Source: a candidate division SR1 bacterium
Lineage (GTDB): Bacteria > Patescibacteriota > JACMRA01
Assembly (NCBI GenBank): GCA_014377045.1
Contig: JACMQI010000028.1
Coordinates: 1 to 64,000, forward strand
Length of the DNA stretch: 64,000 nt
Reading direction: 5' to 3'
The position numbers and the translations under genes are program-made. The notes beneath the pieces are model-generated. The model searched no databases. It was not told the DNA's origin and was given only the letters and a program-made list of their open reading frames with translations. How positions within the stretch are numbered: position 1 is the stretch's first letter; every line of letters starts with the position of its first letter. Positions 6,941-14,703 of this stretch are shown here, piece by piece.

Positions 6941-8311
6941 ATGCAAAAATACGACTACGCTTACTTATCCAACAAAGTAATATTTATTCTAATTTCTATT
7001 CTTGTGTTATCTCCAATAACTGGTATGACAAATAATAACTATAAAGTACTAGATCTGTTTGATGGTGTAGTAAATGTCAACGCTTCTACAGGAAATATAT
7101 CGCCACAGTACAGTTGTTATGGAAGCAATAGTTCCTACAGACAATATCCACATGTACCCACAGCAAGTAATTTACTTTTGTCAACTATAATAAGCACTCC
7201 AATATCGATCACTCCAGCAGTTATTCAAAATATTATTTCTCCTGCTTTACCATCAACCAATCCAGTGACTGGTTTTTGTGCTGAAGAAAAACTAAATTTT
7301 GGCACTTTAAATGTCAATGGTACTCCTCAAGTTATAAATTATCCTTTGACAAGTCTGTCTTATGATACATCTCATAACTTTAGATTTACTGATAACAACA
7401 TAACATATGCTCCTCCAATAGGTTTTAAAGGTGTAGCTTGTTTTTCTGCATATTATGACTATAAAATAACACAAGCAAGTTATGATGGAGATGTGAATTC
7501 TTATATAGATCGCTTTGGTAATCAAACTAATAACTATAATGATTATGAATCTACAAACATAGTACCTATCAAAATCCAAGTTGGTGGGTCTGCATCTACT
7601 ATTTGCGGCTCTGATCCTATAACTGGTGAAATTGGAAGTCCTTTCCCAAATATTTGGTCAGATGGCTTTAGTGGTTTTAATAACTTACAATATAGTTTCA
7701 AACTTACTGGATCTAATACCACTATTACTGGTAAAATTATGCAACAAGCTAATGATACTTATGGTAAATTCGTTCCAGATCCTGGACAAGTTATTCCTTC
7801 TGATGCTAAAACTGGATTGAATCAAGAAATGCCAGAATTAAACGATGGAAGCTTTCCTTTCCAAACCAACTTCTCTCCAGCTATTACATTGGGAGTACCA
7901 GTAGCGACTGCTACGAATCCTATAGCAGGTCAAGTTGGCAAATCTCTTTTCCCAACAATTAGTTTAATTGGTTCTAATTTACCTGAAGGTGCTGTAGTTA
8001 CTTTTACTCCAGCTGGTAGTAGCAAAATTATCACTGGTAAAATAATGGGAGGAAACTTTGTACCAGATGCTAGTCAGGTAGTACCAGAAGACGCAAAAAC
8101 AGGAAGTGCTAGGGGTATACTAAAGTTTGGAGTTATTCTAGCCTTGGAGGTACCAACAGATTTTACTACTATAGTTTCATCATCTGGTGATCCAGCTAAA
8201 ATTGTAATAACGGTTACTAATCCTATACTCATAAGAACTGGCGGCTCATCAGATGATTCCTATCTAAATTTATTTTCAGCTTTATTTAGTTTTTTTGGAA
8301 AAATACTTTAG
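6941..8311 (+). CDS. Secreted surface protein with Ig-like repeats and a C-terminal R-T-G-G segment
   Basis: Start set at ATG 6941 because the in-frame TTG at 6887 is the -35 box. 456 residues with an N-terminal hydrophobic signal (VIFILISILVLSPITG). The middle is Ser/Thr/Asn-rich. Two repeats of about 75 residues share a pattern: G-x-x-G-x-x-FP, then ITGKIM, then FVPD, then QV-x-P-x-DAKTG. The C-terminus has ILIRTGGSSDD followed by a short hydrophobic stretch, resembling the RSGG ends of the proteins at 49998 and 52450 but without a clear basic tail. Likely exported and cell-surface attached; ligand unknown. No convincing terminator was found before the convergent gene at 8503. Confidence 0.7.
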   Translation: MQKYDYAYLSNKVIFILISILVLSPITGMTNNNYKVLDLFDGVVNVNASTGNISPQYSCYGSNSSYRQYPHVPTASNLLLSTIISTPISITPAVIQNIISPALPSTNPVTGFCAEEKLNFGTLNVNGTPQVINYPLTSLSYDTSHNFRFTDNNITYAPPIGFKGVACFSAYYDYKITQASYDGDVNSYIDRFGNQTNNYNDYESTNIVPIKIQVGGSASTICGSDPITGEIGSPFPNIWSDGFSGFNNLQYSFKLTGSNTTITGKIMQQANDTYGKFVPDPGQVIPSDAKTGLNQEMPELNDGSFPFQTNFSPAITLGVPVATATNPIAGQVGKSLFPTISLIGSNLPEGAVVTFTPAGSSKIITGKIMGGNFVPDASQVVPEDAKTGSARGILKFGVILALEVPTDFTTIVSSSGDPAKIVITVTNPILIRTGGSSDDSYLNLFSALFSFFGKIL

Positions 8312-8502: not shown

Positions 8503-10065
8503 CTAATAATTTGGTACTACTGTCCAAGTAACAGTTTGAGTATAGATTCCACCTAAAGTATTTCCAGATATTGCAGCTCTTTGATCTACTAAGATAGTAT
8601 TTGTAGTGTCGGTGTTTGCTGGTATGTTTGGTCCGTCACAGCTCAAAACAGTGGTTGGTGATACATAATTAAAAAGAACTGCATTTCCTGGTAGAGGATT
8701 AAAAGCTGTAGCTAAAACGTTTGTACCGTTTGTGCACGAACCAGGAGTTATGATAACGCCATATCCTTCTGTATTAGCTACTATATTAGTACCGCCACTT
8801 CCACCTGTTCCAGCAGTTGCATTCGCTACATTATTAGATTCAGAGATAAGTGGTCCAGATGTTCTGACTTGAATAGAGTATCCATTTCTTGCAGTAGTAG
8901 AGTATTTGATACGATACTGGCATGATCCAACTGAGATAATAGATAAATCACCAAAATCACATAAATTCGTAAAGTTAGCTGTATCTGTAGAATTTCGAAG
9001 TGTCAAAGAAATAGTATCTATTGGGCGTGCATTTGATGATATTGCTAGTGTCACTAATTCATTATATTTTATTAGTGCAAAATTTCGCATTCTGTGTTCA
9101 CGTGCACGAGAAGCAGTGGTTCTCCCTCCAAATCCAAAGTTAGTATTGGTAAGGGTAGGTGCAGTACCAAGTGTAGTGCTAACTCTTAAAGTGCTATTTT
9201 CATACAGTTCTTTGGTTGTTTGACTGTATGTAGCCTTCATTGATCTCCAAATACCATTTGCTATATTTGCATTAGTAGTCGCAAAAGTTGCTGTACCTGC
9301 ACATCCAGCACCAGCACCATTATAGCAAAAACGAGCGTTAAATTCATCAATATTAAAATGAGCTCCTCCTAGTCCTGCGGCATCCTCAGTTGTAGGCGTT
9401 GGTGTGTTATCAAAAGCATATTGCCATATTGCTTGACCACCAGTTGCAGTACCTACTGTACCAGTAAAAGTATCAAACCAAACTTTGTATCCTCTATTAG
9501 GGGCGACTCCAGGTATATATCCAGCATAGTTACAGTATCCAGCATTTGTAACTGCTGTACTCGGTGTAAGCTGAAGCCAGTTATTTACGCTATCCCATAC
9601 TGCTGATCCAGAAAGCGTGCAAGTAGGCGTTGCTGTAAACATCTCATACTTATCAAATACTGTGAGCGGGGTGGCGGTTGTGTTCAGAGTATTGTCGCCA
9701 AAAGTGATATAGTAAGTACTTGTCCCAACAGGTATCGAGGGAATGACGAAAACTACTGAAGTAAATGTTGTATTGCAGTTGAGAAATGCAAAAGTAAGTG
9801 GGGTTGCAAAGTCAGACCCATAGACTCGGATATCACCACAATTAGATTTCATGCGTCCTGCGATTATTTCAGTTGTCGTGTCAAATGTTGCATCGATAGG
9901 GTAGTTAGCTTGTATGCTGCCGATCGAATTTGTAACTGTAACAGTTTTAGTAATATAGCCTGCAGAAAAACTAGAAATATTGGTGTTACAAATAAATAAT
10001 AAGACTATAACGAACGTTGCAATATTTAATACACGATATATAGTTGTATATAACCTTGTATCCAT
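8503..10065 (-). CDS. Surface adhesin-like protein: DUF2341-like, lectin-like and WxL-like domains
   Basis: 520 residues. Signal peptide about 1-34. A DUF2341-like domain (about 37-130) shows AGRMKSNCGDIRVYG, the family's GxMRxDxxDIR pattern. A concanavalin-like sandwich follows (about 135-340: GGAHFNIDEF, GIWRSMKATYS, ELYENSTLRV). The C-terminal about 170 residues match the ends of the proteins at 10107 and 13705: CDFGDL, then RNGYSIQVRTSG, ending GIYTQTVTWTVVPNY. This order of an FG-type motif, G-aromatic-x-hydrophobic and a terminal G-x-Y-x-x-x-hydrophobic-W-T-hydrophobic strand resembles the WxL domain that binds peptidoglycan non-covalently. It is a paralogue of the next gene. Function inferred: cell-wall-bound carbohydrate-binding protein. 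Confidence 0.7.
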   Translation of the reverse strand: MDTRLYTTIYRVLNIATFVIVLLFICNTNISSFSAGYITKTVTVTNSIGSIQANYPIDATFDTTTEIIAGRMKSNCGDIRVYGSDFATPLTFAFLNCNTTFTSVVFVIPSIPVGTSTYYITFGDNTLNTTATPLTVFDKYEMFTATPTCTLSGSAVWDSVNNWLQLTPSTAVTNAGYCNYAGYIPGVAPNRGYKVWFDTFTGTVGTATGGQAIWQYAFDNTPTPTTEDAAGLGGAHFNIDEFNARFCYNGAGAGCAGTATFATTNANIANGIWRSMKATYSQTTKELYENSTLRVSTTLGTAPTLTNTNFGFGGRTTASRAREHRMRNFALIKYNELVTLAISSNARPIDTISLTLRNSTDTANFTNLCDFGDLSIISVGSCQYRIKYSTTARNGYSIQVRTSGPLISESNNVANATAGTGGSGGTNIVANTEGYGVIITPGSCTNGTNVLATAFNPLPGNAVLFNYVSPTTVLSCDGPNIPANTDTTNTILVDQRAAISGNTLGGIYTQTVTWTVVPNY

Positions 10066-10106
10066 ATTTATAGCAAGTATTTTGCTTTTCTCGTTTCATG
10101 TCAATA

Positions 10107-11642
10107 CTAGTAGTTTGGTACAACTGTCCAAGTCACAGTCTGAACATAAATACCTGCCGAAGTAAGGGAAGAAATCGCTATACGCTGATCCACAAGCACT
10201 GTGTTTGTGGTGTCGATTGTTATGGGTTGATTTGTGCTATTGCATGAAGTTATAGTTGTTGCGGTCGTGTAATTGAAGAGTACTGCATTACCTGAAGCTG
10301 GATTAAACGATGCTGCAGGGGTCATGGTTCCAGTACTACATGAGTTAGGGGTGATAATAACTCCATACATTTCAGTTCCAGCGACAATTAGTGTCCCGCC
10401 AACTCCACCTGTACCAGCAATAGCGTTTGTCACTGCAATAGCTCCATTGAGTAAATTCCCAGATGTTTTAACCTGCAAACTATATCCATTTTTAGCAATT
10501 GAAGTCACCTTTAGTCTATATTGACAACTAGCAACAGCCGAAGTGACCAAATCTCCAAAGTCACATATATTGTTGTACGGTACGGTATCAGTAGCATTTC
10601 TAATACTAAACGCTAAGTTATCCACAAGTGAAGTATACACCGATTCGCTATATTTCATTATTGCAAGAGCTCTAATTCTGTGAATATTATTTTGACCTCC
10701 AGTTCTACCTGCAAATCCAAAAAAAGTATTAGCTGTATTTACTGCATTAGTCGAAGTTGTTGCGTTGATCCTCAATTGTCCATCTTCGAACATTTTACGT
10801 GATGTTGGGTCGTAGCTTACTTTCATACTTCGCCAAACTCCATTACCTATAATTGTGTTTGCAAAAGAAGCATCGCACGTACCGTTATCTACAGTAGAGG
10901 TAGTAAAGCACATACGAGACTGAAATTCATCATAAGTAAAGTGTTGTCCACCTAACACAATATCTTCGGCTGTAGGTATGGCAGAGTCAAAAGCATATTG
11001 CCATGTAGAATCTGCACCAGTTCCACCTCCAGCATATGTTTGATAAAAAGCTCGGTATCCTTTCGTGGCTAAACTTGAAGAATAGCTATAATTACACGTT
11101 CCAGACTGATTATTAACAGCAGCAGTAAGAGCTAACCACTTATTTGTTGCATCCCATGTAGCACTACCACCAAGCGTACAAGTAGGGGGTGTTGCAGTTG
11201 ACATTTCATATTTGTCAAATACAGCAGTTGGATTGGCTGTCGTTATAGCTGGCGGGTCGTTATAATTTATATATTGAGTACTAAATCCTGTTGCTAAACT
11301 TGGTACTATATAAACCACAGATGTATACGTAGTATTACAACTCAACACTGCATATGTGAGTGAAGTCGTCAAACCGCTATCTGAGAACATGCGTATGTCG
11401 CCACAGTCAGATCGCATAGTACCTGAACTTATAAGTGTAGCAGTATTAAGTATATATTCTGTAGGATAGTTAGTTTGTGCTGATCCAAGACTATTTGATG
11501 TTTTTAAAGCTTGTGTAATACTTCCAATTGCGCGTACTTTCGGGGCAGGCAAGCCTAGTAATATTGTAGATAATGAGATTATTAATATTAATAAGATTAA
11601 GCGCGGCCCAATTCTATTTAAGTTCATATTCCTTAGTACCAT
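10107..11642 (-). CDS. Paralogous surface adhesin-like protein: DUF2341-like, lectin-like and WxL-like domains
   Basis: 511 residues with the same architecture as its downstream neighbour. Signal peptide about 1-38. DUF2341-like part with SSGTMRSDCGDIRMF. Lectin-like part (GGQHFTYDEFQSR, GVWRSMKVSYD, KMFEDGQLRI). The C-terminal WxL-like module has CDFGDL, KNGYSLQVKTSG and the end GIYVQTVTWTVVPNY. Two cysteines flank the CDFGDL segment. The frame begins 29 bp inside the upstream membrane-protein gene, suggesting translational coupling; an internal ATG at 11627 is an alternative start. The tandem arrangement and full-length similarity indicate duplication. Confidence 0.7.
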   Translation of the reverse strand: MVLRNMNLNRIGPRLILLILIISLSTILLGLPAPKVRAIGSITQALKTSNSLGSAQTNYPTEYILNTATLISSGTMRSDCGDIRMFSDSGLTTSLTYAVLSCNTTYTSVVYIVPSLATGFSTQYINYNDPPAITTANPTAVFDKYEMSTATPPTCTLGGSATWDATNKWLALTAAVNNQSGTCNYSYSSSLATKGYRAFYQTYAGGGTGADSTWQYAFDSAIPTAEDIVLGGQHFTYDEFQSRMCFTTSTVDNGTCDASFANTIIGNGVWRSMKVSYDPTSRKMFEDGQLRINATTSTNAVNTANTFFGFAGRTGGQNNIHRIRALAIMKYSESVYTSLVDNLAFSIRNATDTVPYNNICDFGDLVTSAVASCQYRLKVTSIAKNGYSLQVKTSGNLLNGAIAVTNAIAGTGGVGGTLIVAGTEMYGVIITPNSCSTGTMTPAASFNPASGNAVLFNYTTATTITSCNSTNQPITIDTTNTVLVDQRIAISSLTSAGIYVQTVTWTVVPNY

Positions 11643-12639
11643 AAACTACTTTGAAAGGATAAATATCTAGATTTTTATTATCTAAAGCAATAACTGCCAG
11701 CCAGTGGTATGCAGGCAACGCATTTGCTTTTTTGTCTGTTCTCCAACTAGCAGGGGCATTTTTAGTAACGCAAATGTCATTTCGTACAAGATTTATTGAA
11801 CCAGTGTTATCAATGGTAGTAGGTTCTACACCAGGAAAACCGTTGACGCAATTCCATAAAATATCAATTTGCGGATCGAACAAACCATTTTGATCACTGT
11901 CAATATAAATTTGCATCTTACTATCTTTATATTTTGAAACTAAGTCTACTGAAAGTGTTAATTTGGTTTCTTGAAGTTTTGCAATATTGAAAGACTCAAT
12001 TTTTATTTCGTCAATAGTAATCTCGCTTTCCTTTTTTGGCCATAACCTGACTAAGATCTGCTCATTAGTTGCAAGCGTATTGGGTAATATGACAGAGTAT
12101 TCGGCACTTTTTCCCTCAATTTGTCCAATAGATTTAACTATTTCATTTTTTTCATTATCTCGAATATCTATAGCTAGTTTATCTTCAGCTCCCATTTTAG
12201 CATTAAACACTATTTTATGTAAATAAGTACCTTGGGCAGGGATACCAGTAGCAAATGGACGTACAATAAATCCACAACCGTTGAGTATCGGCGGAATCTC
12301 AGGAGTAAAACAATTCGTTGTATTTTTACTTGATATACTTTGTTTTTTAAGTTCTAGCTGATAACCTATTTCACTAACCGCAGAATTGTTATAAAAGCTT
12401 GTAATTGAAGTACTATAATCTTGATTGATGTTTGGAATTACAGGTAATTGAACTAACTTACTATCACTTGCTAAAACAAGATTTTTCGATTGATATTCTT
12501 TGTATTGAAGGAATCCAAGAACTATTATATTAACAACTACTATAGTTACCAATATTAACGACATTAATTTAAATCGATTTTGTAATCCTTTTATCTCATC
12601 TTGTACTATATCTATCTTATTTGTAGAAACATTTTTCAT
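11614..12639 (-). CDS. Membrane-anchored extracellular protein of unknown function with a calcium-loop-like motif
   Basis: 341 residues. A short positive N-terminus and one transmembrane helix at about 24-44 place the remaining ~295 residues outside. I do not recognise the ectodomain. It contains DSDQNGLFD (about residue 249), which matches the DxDxNGxxD calcium-binding loop seen in dockerin and EF-hand-like repeats, and several cysteines that could pair. It lies 10 nt downstream of the DUF916-like gene and overlaps the start of the adhesin-like gene, so it belongs to the same operon. A role as a scaffold or partner for the wall-bound proteins is inference from position. Confidence 0.6.
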   Translation of the reverse strand: MKNVSTNKIDIVQDEIKGLQNRFKLMSLILVTIVVVNIIVLGFLQYKEYQSKNLVLASDSKLVQLPVIPNINQDYSTSITSFYNNSAVSEIGYQLELKKQSISSKNTTNCFTPEIPPILNGCGFIVRPFATGIPAQGTYLHKIVFNAKMGAEDKLAIDIRDNEKNEIVKSIGQIEGKSAEYSVILPNTLATNEQILVRLWPKKESEITIDEIKIESFNIAKLQETKLTLSVDLVSKYKDSKMQIYIDSDQNGLFDPQIDILWNCVNGFPGVEPTTIDNTGSINLVRNDICVTKNAPASWRTDKKANALPAYHWLAVIALDNKNLDIYPFKVVYGTKEYELK

Positions 12640-12648
12640 AGTTATATA

Positions 12649-13614
12649 CTATTTTCTATATTTTTTTATTGTCTTAAAGCCTAGCAAAATTATAATTAAT
12701 ACACCTAGTAAAAGTAAGGTAGTTTTGTATGGAGCAAAAATTATTTGTTTTTTAGTAGTAACGGATTGCGGGTTACTTCCTCCATCAGTAAAATCGAGCC
12801 TTATCTCTATATCGCGCTTTCCAAGCCATGGCAAGGCAAACGTACTTTGTTCATTACATTTTGTCAAAAATATATTATTTCCAAAACATTTGCTGTATGA
12901 TCGTTTTGCACCAGGAAGTATTAGATTATCCGATATAATAGAAGAAAGAGTAGTAATATTGTCCGAATTATCATCTATCAAAAATAGATTTCCAACAGGG
13001 CGATAAAAACTGGTTCCTTTGACCTCTACATCATAGTTTACATCTATTTTATCAAATAAAGGATCTATCCATGCTGGTGTAGCTGAAAAATTTTGGATAA
13101 GTGGCTGTTTAGTGCTATCACCCCCAATATTTACAAAAATAAGTGTAGCAATACGTGACTTCAAAACTACTGTATTTTTTCCATCTACATTTTGCACTTC
13201 ACTACCCCTCGGTTGATATGTAACTGCAAAGAATTTTGCTCCAGGGGATACCTCATCAGGAATAGTAATCTGGTATGTAACTTTAGTATTAATATTTTTC
13301 TTAAAATCTTGAGTTTTTGGTACTTTGAGCCAATAGCTAAAATCCTTTTCAGATTTGAAGGGAACTACATTTGCTGACCCAGGTATACTTCCTTCTTCAA
13401 AAGTTTCTATACTTGTATCTACCGTAAGTAGGTCAGTATCGGTATTGTTTTCGATATCATAATCGATACTGTAAGTTTTGCCAGGTACAACTTCAATTTC
13501 TTGAATCGGAGGAGAAACGATCAAACCTTGTGATGACGATTGGGCTTTAGTATTTACCAATGGATTGAATAAGAAACTAAAAATACATACAAAACTAAGA
13601 AACCTGGAAAACAT
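12649..13614 (-). CDS. DUF916/DUF3324-like membrane-anchored protein (WxL-interacting type)
   Basis: Start set at ATG 13614 because the TTG codons near 13659 form part of the -35 box; this also gives a good signal peptide (SFVCIFSFLFNPLVNTKAQ). 321 residues. The first domain starts IVSPPIQEIEVVPGKTYS and continues DIENNTDTDL, the DUF916 pattern of a Pro-Gly-Lys turn and an ENN strand. A second beta domain (about 165-280) sits where DUF3324 would be. A C-terminal transmembrane helix (TLLLLGVLIIILLGF) and basic tail (KTIKKYRK) follow. In Firmicutes such proteins are encoded beside WxL proteins and bind them. Here it lies between three proteins with WxL-like ends. Family is inferred by eye. Confidence 0.65.
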   Translation of the reverse strand: MFSRFLSFVCIFSFLFNPLVNTKAQSSSQGLIVSPPIQEIEVVPGKTYSIDYDIENNTDTDLLTVDTSIETFEEGSIPGSANVVPFKSEKDFSYWLKVPKTQDFKKNINTKVTYQITIPDEVSPGAKFFAVTYQPRGSEVQNVDGKNTVVLKSRIATLIFVNIGGDSTKQPLIQNFSATPAWIDPLFDKIDVNYDVEVKGTSFYRPVGNLFLIDDNSDNITTLSSIISDNLILPGAKRSYSKCFGNNIFLTKCNEQSTFALPWLGKRDIEIRLDFTDGGSNPQSVTTKKQIIFAPYKTTLLLLGVLIIILLGFKTIKKYRK

Positions 13615-13627
13615 ACACGTAAGGAAA

Positions 13628-13656
13628 ATATAATTATACTTAGTCAAACTTGTCAA
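13628..13656 (-). promoter_or_regulatory. Promoter of the DUF916-like gene cluster
   Basis: On the minus strand TTGACA (13656-13651), then 17 nt and TTATAT (13633-13628); a perfect TATAAT is also present 12 nt after the -35 box. The -35 box begins within the T tract of the preceding terminator. Confidence 0.5.
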
Positions 13657-13681
13657 CAAAACACCTCCAAAAGAGGAGGTG
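13655..13681 (-). terminator. Intrinsic terminator after the short WxL-like protein gene
   Basis: On the minus strand CACCTCC-TCTTTT-GGAGGTG is a 7-bp GC-rich stem followed by TTTTGTT. It separates the first gene of the block from the four downstream, so that gene can be expressed at a different (probably higher) level. Confidence 0.8.
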
Positions 13682-13704
13682 AAATATCAGAAAGTATGAG
13701 TTAT

Positions 13705-14703
13705 TTAGAATGAAGGGGCTACTGTATAAGTTACAGTTTGGGTATAAAGTCCAGCAGAAGTATTAGCTGAAATTGCAGCTTCGTGTCTTATTAATGTTGT
13801 ATTAGTAAGATCTGTAGCAGCAGGGCTGTTTGGCTTAGTAGCTGTTAATAGAGTTGCAGCAGTAGTATTTACATATGAAACATTGTTTGTTCCAGAATAA
13901 ACTGTTGCATTAGTTACAGTACCTCCAGAACCAGTGACAGAACCAGGTGTGATTTTAGCACCATATAGTTCAGTACCAGCAACTTGAGCAGTACCAGCAG
14001 TACCTACAGCAGCATTAGCGAAGTTATCAGTACCATTTGTAAAGTTACCAGTGGTATTTACATTGATAGTATAACCAGATCGAGCATTTGTAGTTACTTT
14101 AAGTCTGTAATCACAAAAACCAATAGCAGAGGTAGTAAGATCGCCCATATCACAAATATTAGTATTTGCAGTATCTGCAGTATTTCGAATTGCAAAAGCA
14201 AGCTGTAAAGGAACACGAGCACGAACTGAAACTACGTTAGCAGATCCTACATATTGAAAGTTAGCACCATAATCAACACCAGCATATACTTTGAAAGAAT
14301 TATTTGTAGCTGTTGAAGTGGTAGTCAAACCTGAAATAGTGATTGTTAAAGCGCCTGTAGGAATAGCAGTTGTAACTGTAGCAGTAAGAATAGTTTCTGT
14401 ACCTGAAGTTGTAATTGTAGTTGTTCCTACAACACCAGTAGAAACCGCAATAGCACCAGCACCAGTATATCCAGCAGTAGGGTAAGTAACCTGAACGGTA
14501 CCTCCAATAGCAATAGTAGCAGTAGTAGTAATAGCTAAGGTTGGAGTAGTGGCTGTAGAGACAGCGACAGCTGAAGGAGCAACTGTAACAGTGACACCAG
14601 CAGCGTGAGTATTCAGAGTAGTGTTAACGGCAAGTCCAGAGACAATGCCACATACAGCTAAAACCGAAAGAGAAAGACGAAAAAATTTGTTTGTTTGCAT
14701 CAT
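13705..14703 (-). CDS. Secreted Thr/Val-rich protein with C-terminal WxL-like domain
   Basis: 332 residues. Signal peptide about 1-34. A Thr/Ala/Val-rich beta region (about 35-165) follows with almost no charged residues. The C-terminal module (about 168-332) has NICDMGDL, ARSGYTINVNTTG and the end GLYTQTVTYTVAPSF, homologous to the ends of the two proteins at 8503 and 10107. It has a strong promoter and its own terminator, so it may be the most abundant product of the locus, possibly a surface-layer or wall-coating protein. It starts the minus-strand block and lacks the DUF2341/lectin part. Abundance and surface location are inferences from promoter quality and composition. Confidence 0.7.
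   Translation of the reverse strand: MMQTNKFFRLSLSVLAVCGIVSGLAVNTTLNTHAAGVTVTVAPSAVAVSTATTPTLAITTTATIAIGGTVQVTYPTAGYTGAGAIAVSTGVVGTTTITTSGTETILTATVTTAIPTGALTITISGLTTTSTATNNSFKVYAGVDYGANFQYVGSANVVSVRARVPLQLAFAIRNTADTANTNICDMGDLTTSAIGFCDYRLKVTTNARSGYTINVNTTGNFTNGTDNFANAAVGTAGTAQVAGTELYGAKITPGSVTGSGGTVTNATVYSGTNNVSYVNTTAATLLTATKPNSPAATDLTNTTLIRHEAAISANTSAGLYTQTVTYTVAPSF

Follow-up and report, generated by a model that had tools for sequence, protein, structure and literature searches.

Pam pilin-like C-terminal domains and a WxLIP-related membrane adapter in a surface-protein locus of a candidate division SR1 bacterium

Which kind of surface system is encoded at positions 8503-14703 of the window, the entire 64,000-nucleotide stretch of DNA analysed here, which comes from a very small bacterium of the Candidate Phyla Radiation (candidate division SR1)? 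An earlier note regarded this block as a divergent WxL locus, in which three secreted proteins carry a wall-binding module and a membrane-anchored protein is their partner. The ORF list of the window comprises five block genes, all on the minus strand and at coordinates that agree with that note (proteins are named below after the lowest position of their genes). 13705 (13705..14703) is predicted to be a secreted pilin-type protein of 332 aa with a Sec signal, an N-terminal beta domain and a C-terminal Pam-pilin-C domain (residues ~160-332). 12649 (12649..13614, 321 aa) is a putative adapter of the WxLIP/DUF916 family with signal peptide, two Ig-like beta domains, a C-terminal transmembrane (TM) helix and a basic tail. 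Between 12649 and 10107 lies 11614 (11614..12639), which is part of the block and had gone unmentioned; it encodes a predicted membrane-anchored extracytoplasmic protein of 341 aa with an N-terminal TM segment. 10107 (10107..11642, 511 aa) and its paralogue 8503 (8503..10065, 520 aa) are putative secreted adhesin-type subunits ending in a Pam-pilin-C domain (residues 357-511 and 366-520, respectively); 10107 additionally contains DUF2341 and a lectin-like domain. The four genes from 12649 to 8503 are closely packed, with gaps of 9 and 41 bases and one overlap of 29 bases. 3' of the 13705 gene, a terminator-like hairpin (13662..13681, minus strand) is directly followed by a promoter-like TTGACA-18-TATATT (13656-13627, minus strand), both being consensus matches only and such sites not exceeding in number the expectation from shuffled sequence. 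Arranged in this way, the two sites suggest a transcription unit of its own for 13705, which is probable, and a start of 12649 at ATG 13614. Because of the promoter-like site, this start codon is more likely than TTG 13659. Convergent with the operon, a secreted 456-aa protein with two internal repeats and without family match is encoded on the plus strand (6941-8311).

That 8503, 10107 and 13705 have a common C-terminal module was borne out by pairwise comparison of their last 170 residues: 8503 and 10107 are 61% identical (E 4e-72), 10107 and 13705 49% (E 4e-42) and 8503 and 13705 47% (E 4e-41). The motifs were found as described, namely CDFGDL or CDMGDL, then GYSIQV, GYSLQV or GYTINV, and a terminal strand; the modules end in GIYTQTVTWTVVPNY, GIYVQTVTWTVVPNY and GLYTQTVTYTVAPSF, the last of these being the end of 13705. 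A peptide-pattern search of the genome contigs for close relatives of the module yielded none. In the NCBIfam search, 13705 was matched by NF058581 (E 2.6e-7, 30.8 bits, cut-off 55), the model CPR_Pam_pilin_C, named 'Pam pilus system pilin subunit'. When the whole genome was searched with this model, the three window proteins matched and no other (E 2.4e-8, 2.0e-7 and 1.4e-6, with 2e-7 for 10107 and 1.4e-6 for 8503). Their scores of 28-34 bits are below the cut-off of 55, and the alignments span model positions 2, 4 or 5 to 148 of 148. As an independent check, pilin domains of other families served to build an HMM, the window's own family of genomes being left out. From 70 ORFs, this HMM picked exactly the three proteins (E 7e-21 for 13705, 1e-14 and 1e-13 for the other two). 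Judged by sequence, these proteins are secreted subunits with a common Pam pilin C-terminal domain, and their module appears to be a divergent member of NF058581 and not a WxL domain. A match to a pilin domain is one of the outcomes that the earlier note had named as speaking against its own reading. Two conserved Cys residues are located 13-14 residues apart (C..DFGDL...C.YR) in the pilin-C domains of the window (8503-14166). This Cys pair is kept in the window's family of genomes and in some others, and a disulfide in the first hairpin is possible.

The note had drawn a parallel between the module and the WxL wall-binding domain, with two places corresponding to the W-x-L motifs. The first of them reads G-Y-[ST]-[IL]-x-V; at the second, two of the proteins have W-T-V and the remaining one Y-T-V. 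The parallel was not upheld: Pfam WxL (PF13731) does not match any window protein at E <= 10, and an HMM of patescibacterial WxL proteins and the pilin-C HMM do not find each other. Together, the Pfam null result and the missing cross-match rule out direct WxL membership of the module. Comparison by hhalign aligned the last 33 columns only, with a probability of 66-73%, unrelated control pairs reaching at most 16%. Since the HMMs do not cross-match and the alignment is confined to these columns, common descent of pilin-C and WxL modules is possible at most. The sole PF13731 match in the genome is found on another contig (C33). The block itself is not classified as a WxL locus.

The N-terminal parts of the subunits differ. 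In Pfam, PF10102 (DUF2341) matches 10107 with 24.4 bits and 8503 with 25.1 bits, both over the cut-off, and 10107 shows a lectin L-type match below the cut-off (E 1.6e-4). PDB sequence searches with the pilins, the lectin-like head and patescibacterial WxL proteins did not return useful matches. The AF2 model of 13705 (pLDDT 84.9) is beta-rich and consists of two domains; Foldseek of the whole model retrieved generic two-Ig-domain matches only, e.g. integrins, and is therefore uninformative on the C-terminal domain. Free-standing homologues of 13705 are encoded in sister genomes (L052, 49% identity, and L030). A beta-rich two-domain protein that probably has its own transcription unit and occurs free-standing elsewhere would fit an abundant S-layer protein, with 13705 forming the lattice and the adapter serving as anchoring or quality-control factor. 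We regard this as improbable: The same C-terminal domain is found on lectin-headed paralogues whose genes share an operon with the adapter gene, and the family is curated as pilin.

12649 is the putative partner protein of the block. It is itself without Pfam match, and NCBIfam holds no model for its family. PF06030 (WxLIP_PGBD, formerly DUF916) matches 17 of 21 members of the adapter family at E <= 1 (best 1.5e-8). When the family profile was compared with the whole PDB, the best matches were the Enterococcus faecium WxLIP structures 9i25_C and 9i1y (E 4.5e-5 and 6.6e-5), with both domains covered. The AF2 model of 12649 (pLDDT 76.5) shows two beta domains followed by a terminal helix. Foldseek of this model placed CfaA, a pilus chaperone, WxLIP (9i1y/9i25) and CsuC at the top and RbmA and FimC lower, with TM-scores of 0.3-0.6 that are low to modest in a fold class, Ig-like, which matches widely. 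According to AF2 and Foldseek, 12649 has the layout of a WxLIP, in which a signal peptide is followed by two Ig-like domains in tandem and a TM helix at the C-terminus. A basic residue occupies the position of Arg238 in 18 of 20 family members. Relatives of 12649 were not detected on viral contigs. The two beta domains (predicted beta sandwiches), C-terminal helix and basic tail of the earlier note are retained, with a predicted signal peptide in front. Of the proposed relationship to DUF916/DUF3324, the DUF916 part is supported by superfamily and fold; DUF3324 was not among the families listed. Family profiles and models indicate that 12649 is a genuine relative of the WxLIP/DUF916 superfamily, and the models suggest that it is chaperone-like in shape.

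Does such an adapter accompany the pilin-C domain elsewhere? By iterated HMM search, a homologue of 12649 was found beside the pilins of almost every Pam locus that was fetched. Across a sample of 287 genomes of Patescibacteria, NF058581 matched in 76 (26%), 15 of them above the cut-off. The adapter family was found in 134 (47%) and is commoner than the pilin domain. Among the 101 best-scoring pilin-C places listed, an adapter gene lies within 5 kb in 84 and on the same strand in 83; given a few adapters per megabase, pairing by chance is expected in a few percent. Gene neighbourhood indicates that the 12649-type membrane-anchored adapter goes with the pilin-C domain across Patescibacteria. 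The surplus of adapters is in part due to true WxL proteins: PF13731 matches in 15 of the 287 genomes, most of 14 fetched patescibacterial WxL loci have an adapter gene nearby, and 16 of 18 small secreted proteins from these loci match Pfam WxL. True WxL-type loci are present in Patescibacteria, this genome included. In the WxL-type loci L070-L083, large multi-TM proteins were observed near small WxL and adapter genes in L074, L075, L077, L078, L080, L081 and L083. They could be glycosyltransferases.

In the genome of the window, two further adapter genes were found on other contigs. On C33, an adapter (L061:4882-5964) adjoins a protein that is at least 788 aa long and is matched over its last 160 residues by the HMM of patescibacterial WxL proteins (E 1.4e-20). 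The adapter-family HMM built without the window and L061 members finds both 12649 (E 2.7e-35) and the L061 member (4.7e-20). The C33 WxL-type locus extends over L061:4882-8341, the large protein has an SdrD-B-like domain, and its gene reaches the contig end. C9 carries a third adapter, which comes after a secreted protein of 482 aa that ends in AGDYRSSIIQTVTVG. The display module at this place is not matched by the pilin-C HMM, nor by that for WxL. In this locus (L178:3866-7776), the adapter is encoded between the 482-aa protein and a membrane-anchored protein of 351 aa. The pilin-C module (C15) and the WxL domain (C33, with an adapter of its own) thus coexist in one genome as two distinct families, and the adapters of both belong to one superfamily.

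A WxL-like display without polymers has to be weighed at this point. Here, the modules would bind peptidoglycan and 12649 would lock them as WxLIP does, yielding single wall-bound adhesins. The adapter superfamily, its proximity to real patescibacterial WxL proteins and the weak profile similarity of the last strand of the module to WxL are in line with it. In addition, Mur-ligase and LytR-CpsA-Psr genes occur in the window, so that a wall is probable. One anchored partner with small- and large-headed subunits also resembles the composition of WxL clusters (PMC10599100). However, Pfam does not recognize the module as WxL, a family curated as pilin does match it, the two HMMs do not cross-match, and the genome has a true WxL locus apart from this block. 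Compared with the WxL/WxLIP (DUF916-DUF3324) clusters of Firmicutes, the block is alike in its adapter, by profile and fold, and in the final beta strand (last 33 columns in hhalign), but differs in the subunit module, which continues past the WxL-like strand to end xPx[FY]. Taken together, we consider display of this type rather unlikely.

The pilin reading directs attention to the C-terminus. In 51 distinct pilins, Gly is found at -15, i.e. 14 residues ahead of the last residue, and Tyr or Phe at -13 in 51/51, and the terminal residue is Phe or Tyr in 48/51; since these pilins were chosen with an HMM that includes the Gly and aromatic columns, what is informative is their constant distance from the carboxyl end and not their presence as such. 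The combination of Gly -15 with a terminal aromatic occurs in 0 of 241 other ORFs of at least 150 aa from the same loci. The G-x-Y strand is shared by patescibacterial WxL proteins, which end three or four residues sooner. In pilins of chaperone-usher systems, Gly occupies the position 14 residues from the C-terminus, and an aromatic residue that the chaperone reads is conserved near the end. Chaperone-usher pili (CfaA-CfaB, CsuC-CsuA/B) and the locus are comparable in this register and in the top structural matches of the adapter, among them CfaA and CsuC. In contrast to them, the adapter is predicted to be membrane-anchored, and an outer membrane with usher is not expected in the lineage of this genome, which we take to be monoderm. 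The likeness lies in register and fold, and that in register may be convergence.

The same C-termini bear on the suggestion that the subunits are sortase-linked or type IV pilus proteins. Three sortase-like genes are present in the genome, and Saccharibacteria commonly have type IV pili (PMC12206443). By contrast, the subunits end in a beta strand and a terminal aromatic residue, show neither an LPXTG-type signal nor a TM helix at the C-terminus, and carry Sec signals instead of class III pilin leaders. The contig of the window is devoid of sortase genes. The sortase route was rejected, as sortase-like genes lie elsewhere in the genome and the subunits have no sortase signal. The C-terminal sequences largely refute both variants, and we attach next to no weight to them.

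The block is a real surface-assembly locus and probably a divergent member of the recently named Pam kind. More precisely, we read it as a Pam-type pilus/adhesin locus, reduced and divergent, in which a WxLIP-like membrane chaperone holds the subunits, with a probability of roughly 0.6. The last beta strand of a subunit would end exactly at the carboxyl terminus (Gly -15, Tyr -13, Phe/Tyr -1). After Sec export, the two-domain adapter might bind this strand as a chaperone binds that of a chaperone-usher pilin and keep the subunit at the membrane until its transfer into a fibre or surface layer, polymerization being likewise conjectural. 13705 is the probable major subunit and, with a probable transcription unit of its own, could form an abundant shaft. 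10107 and 8503 with their lectin-like heads may act as tip or side adhesins for glycans of hosts or surfaces. 11614 is a likely accessory of the adapter because a relative of it is fused to an adapter in a sister genome (locus L051, 6485-8116; E 3.8e-108 in the iterated search). Pfam and NCBIfam returned no family match for 11614. As a candidate for PamR it was dismissed, the hhalign probability being 0.4%.

Like the Pam pilus system (NF058581, PamT NF058579, PamR NF058578), the block combines a homologous C-terminal pilin domain with pilin genes directly beside a two-domain, C-terminally anchored adapter. Unlike it, the window proteins score under the NF058581 cut-off, two subunits are lectin-headed with DUF2341, and 11614 is unrelated to PamR by profile. 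In canonical Pam loci, the subunits are recognized together with PamT and PamR. PamT did not match 13705, and PamR had no match in any of the six genomes of the order, the genome of the window being 86% complete. In this 86% complete genome, a Pam-associated F1-like ATPase was not found either; its only ATPase alpha/beta-like matches are distant ones on C25 and C27. In other Patescibacteria, the Pam pilin clusters L043, L044, L046, L047, L048 and L057 adjoin F1-ATPase-like genes as well as genes for stalk-like and membrane proteins. L046 encodes ATPase-like alpha, beta and gamma subunits. Since alpha and beta are recognized strongly by named families and yet remain below their cut-offs, the ATPase beside Pam pilin clusters may be a dedicated one.

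Profile and fold comparisons indicate that Pam-type and WxL-type systems have a common adapter superfamily with a pilus-chaperone-like fold. This points to an assembly principle common to two surface systems that had been regarded as separate, and links a widespread system to a structurally solved Gram-positive partner protein. The rule proposed is that the C-terminus of a subunit goes into a membrane-bound adapter. A broader idea, which we put forward tentatively and with more doubt than confidence, is that Pam pili of Patescibacteria and WxL systems of Firmicutes branched from a single ancient pathway of monoderms. In such a pathway, a membrane-anchored, chaperone-shaped WxLIP/DUF916 protein would receive Sec-exported subunits by their conserved C-terminal beta strand, as an usher-free counterpart of the chaperone-usher route, and this genome would run at least two versions, pilin-type (C15) and WxL-type (C33). 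All this bears on how Patescibacteria attach to hosts. If the adapter is a chaperone, WxLIP of Enterococcus and Lactobacillus would be worth re-examining as an assembly factor, beyond its role as a binder of host or peptidoglycan.

With regard to the taxon, RpoB encoded in the window is closest to that of 'Candidatus Gracilibacteria' RU_4_5 (79%). Gracilibacteria are known for reassignment of TGA. Among the window ORFs of at least 200 aa, 24 stop with TAA, 13 with TAG and 1 with TGA, which is nearly unused, and under table 11 the reading frames of long genes, rpoB among them, are open.
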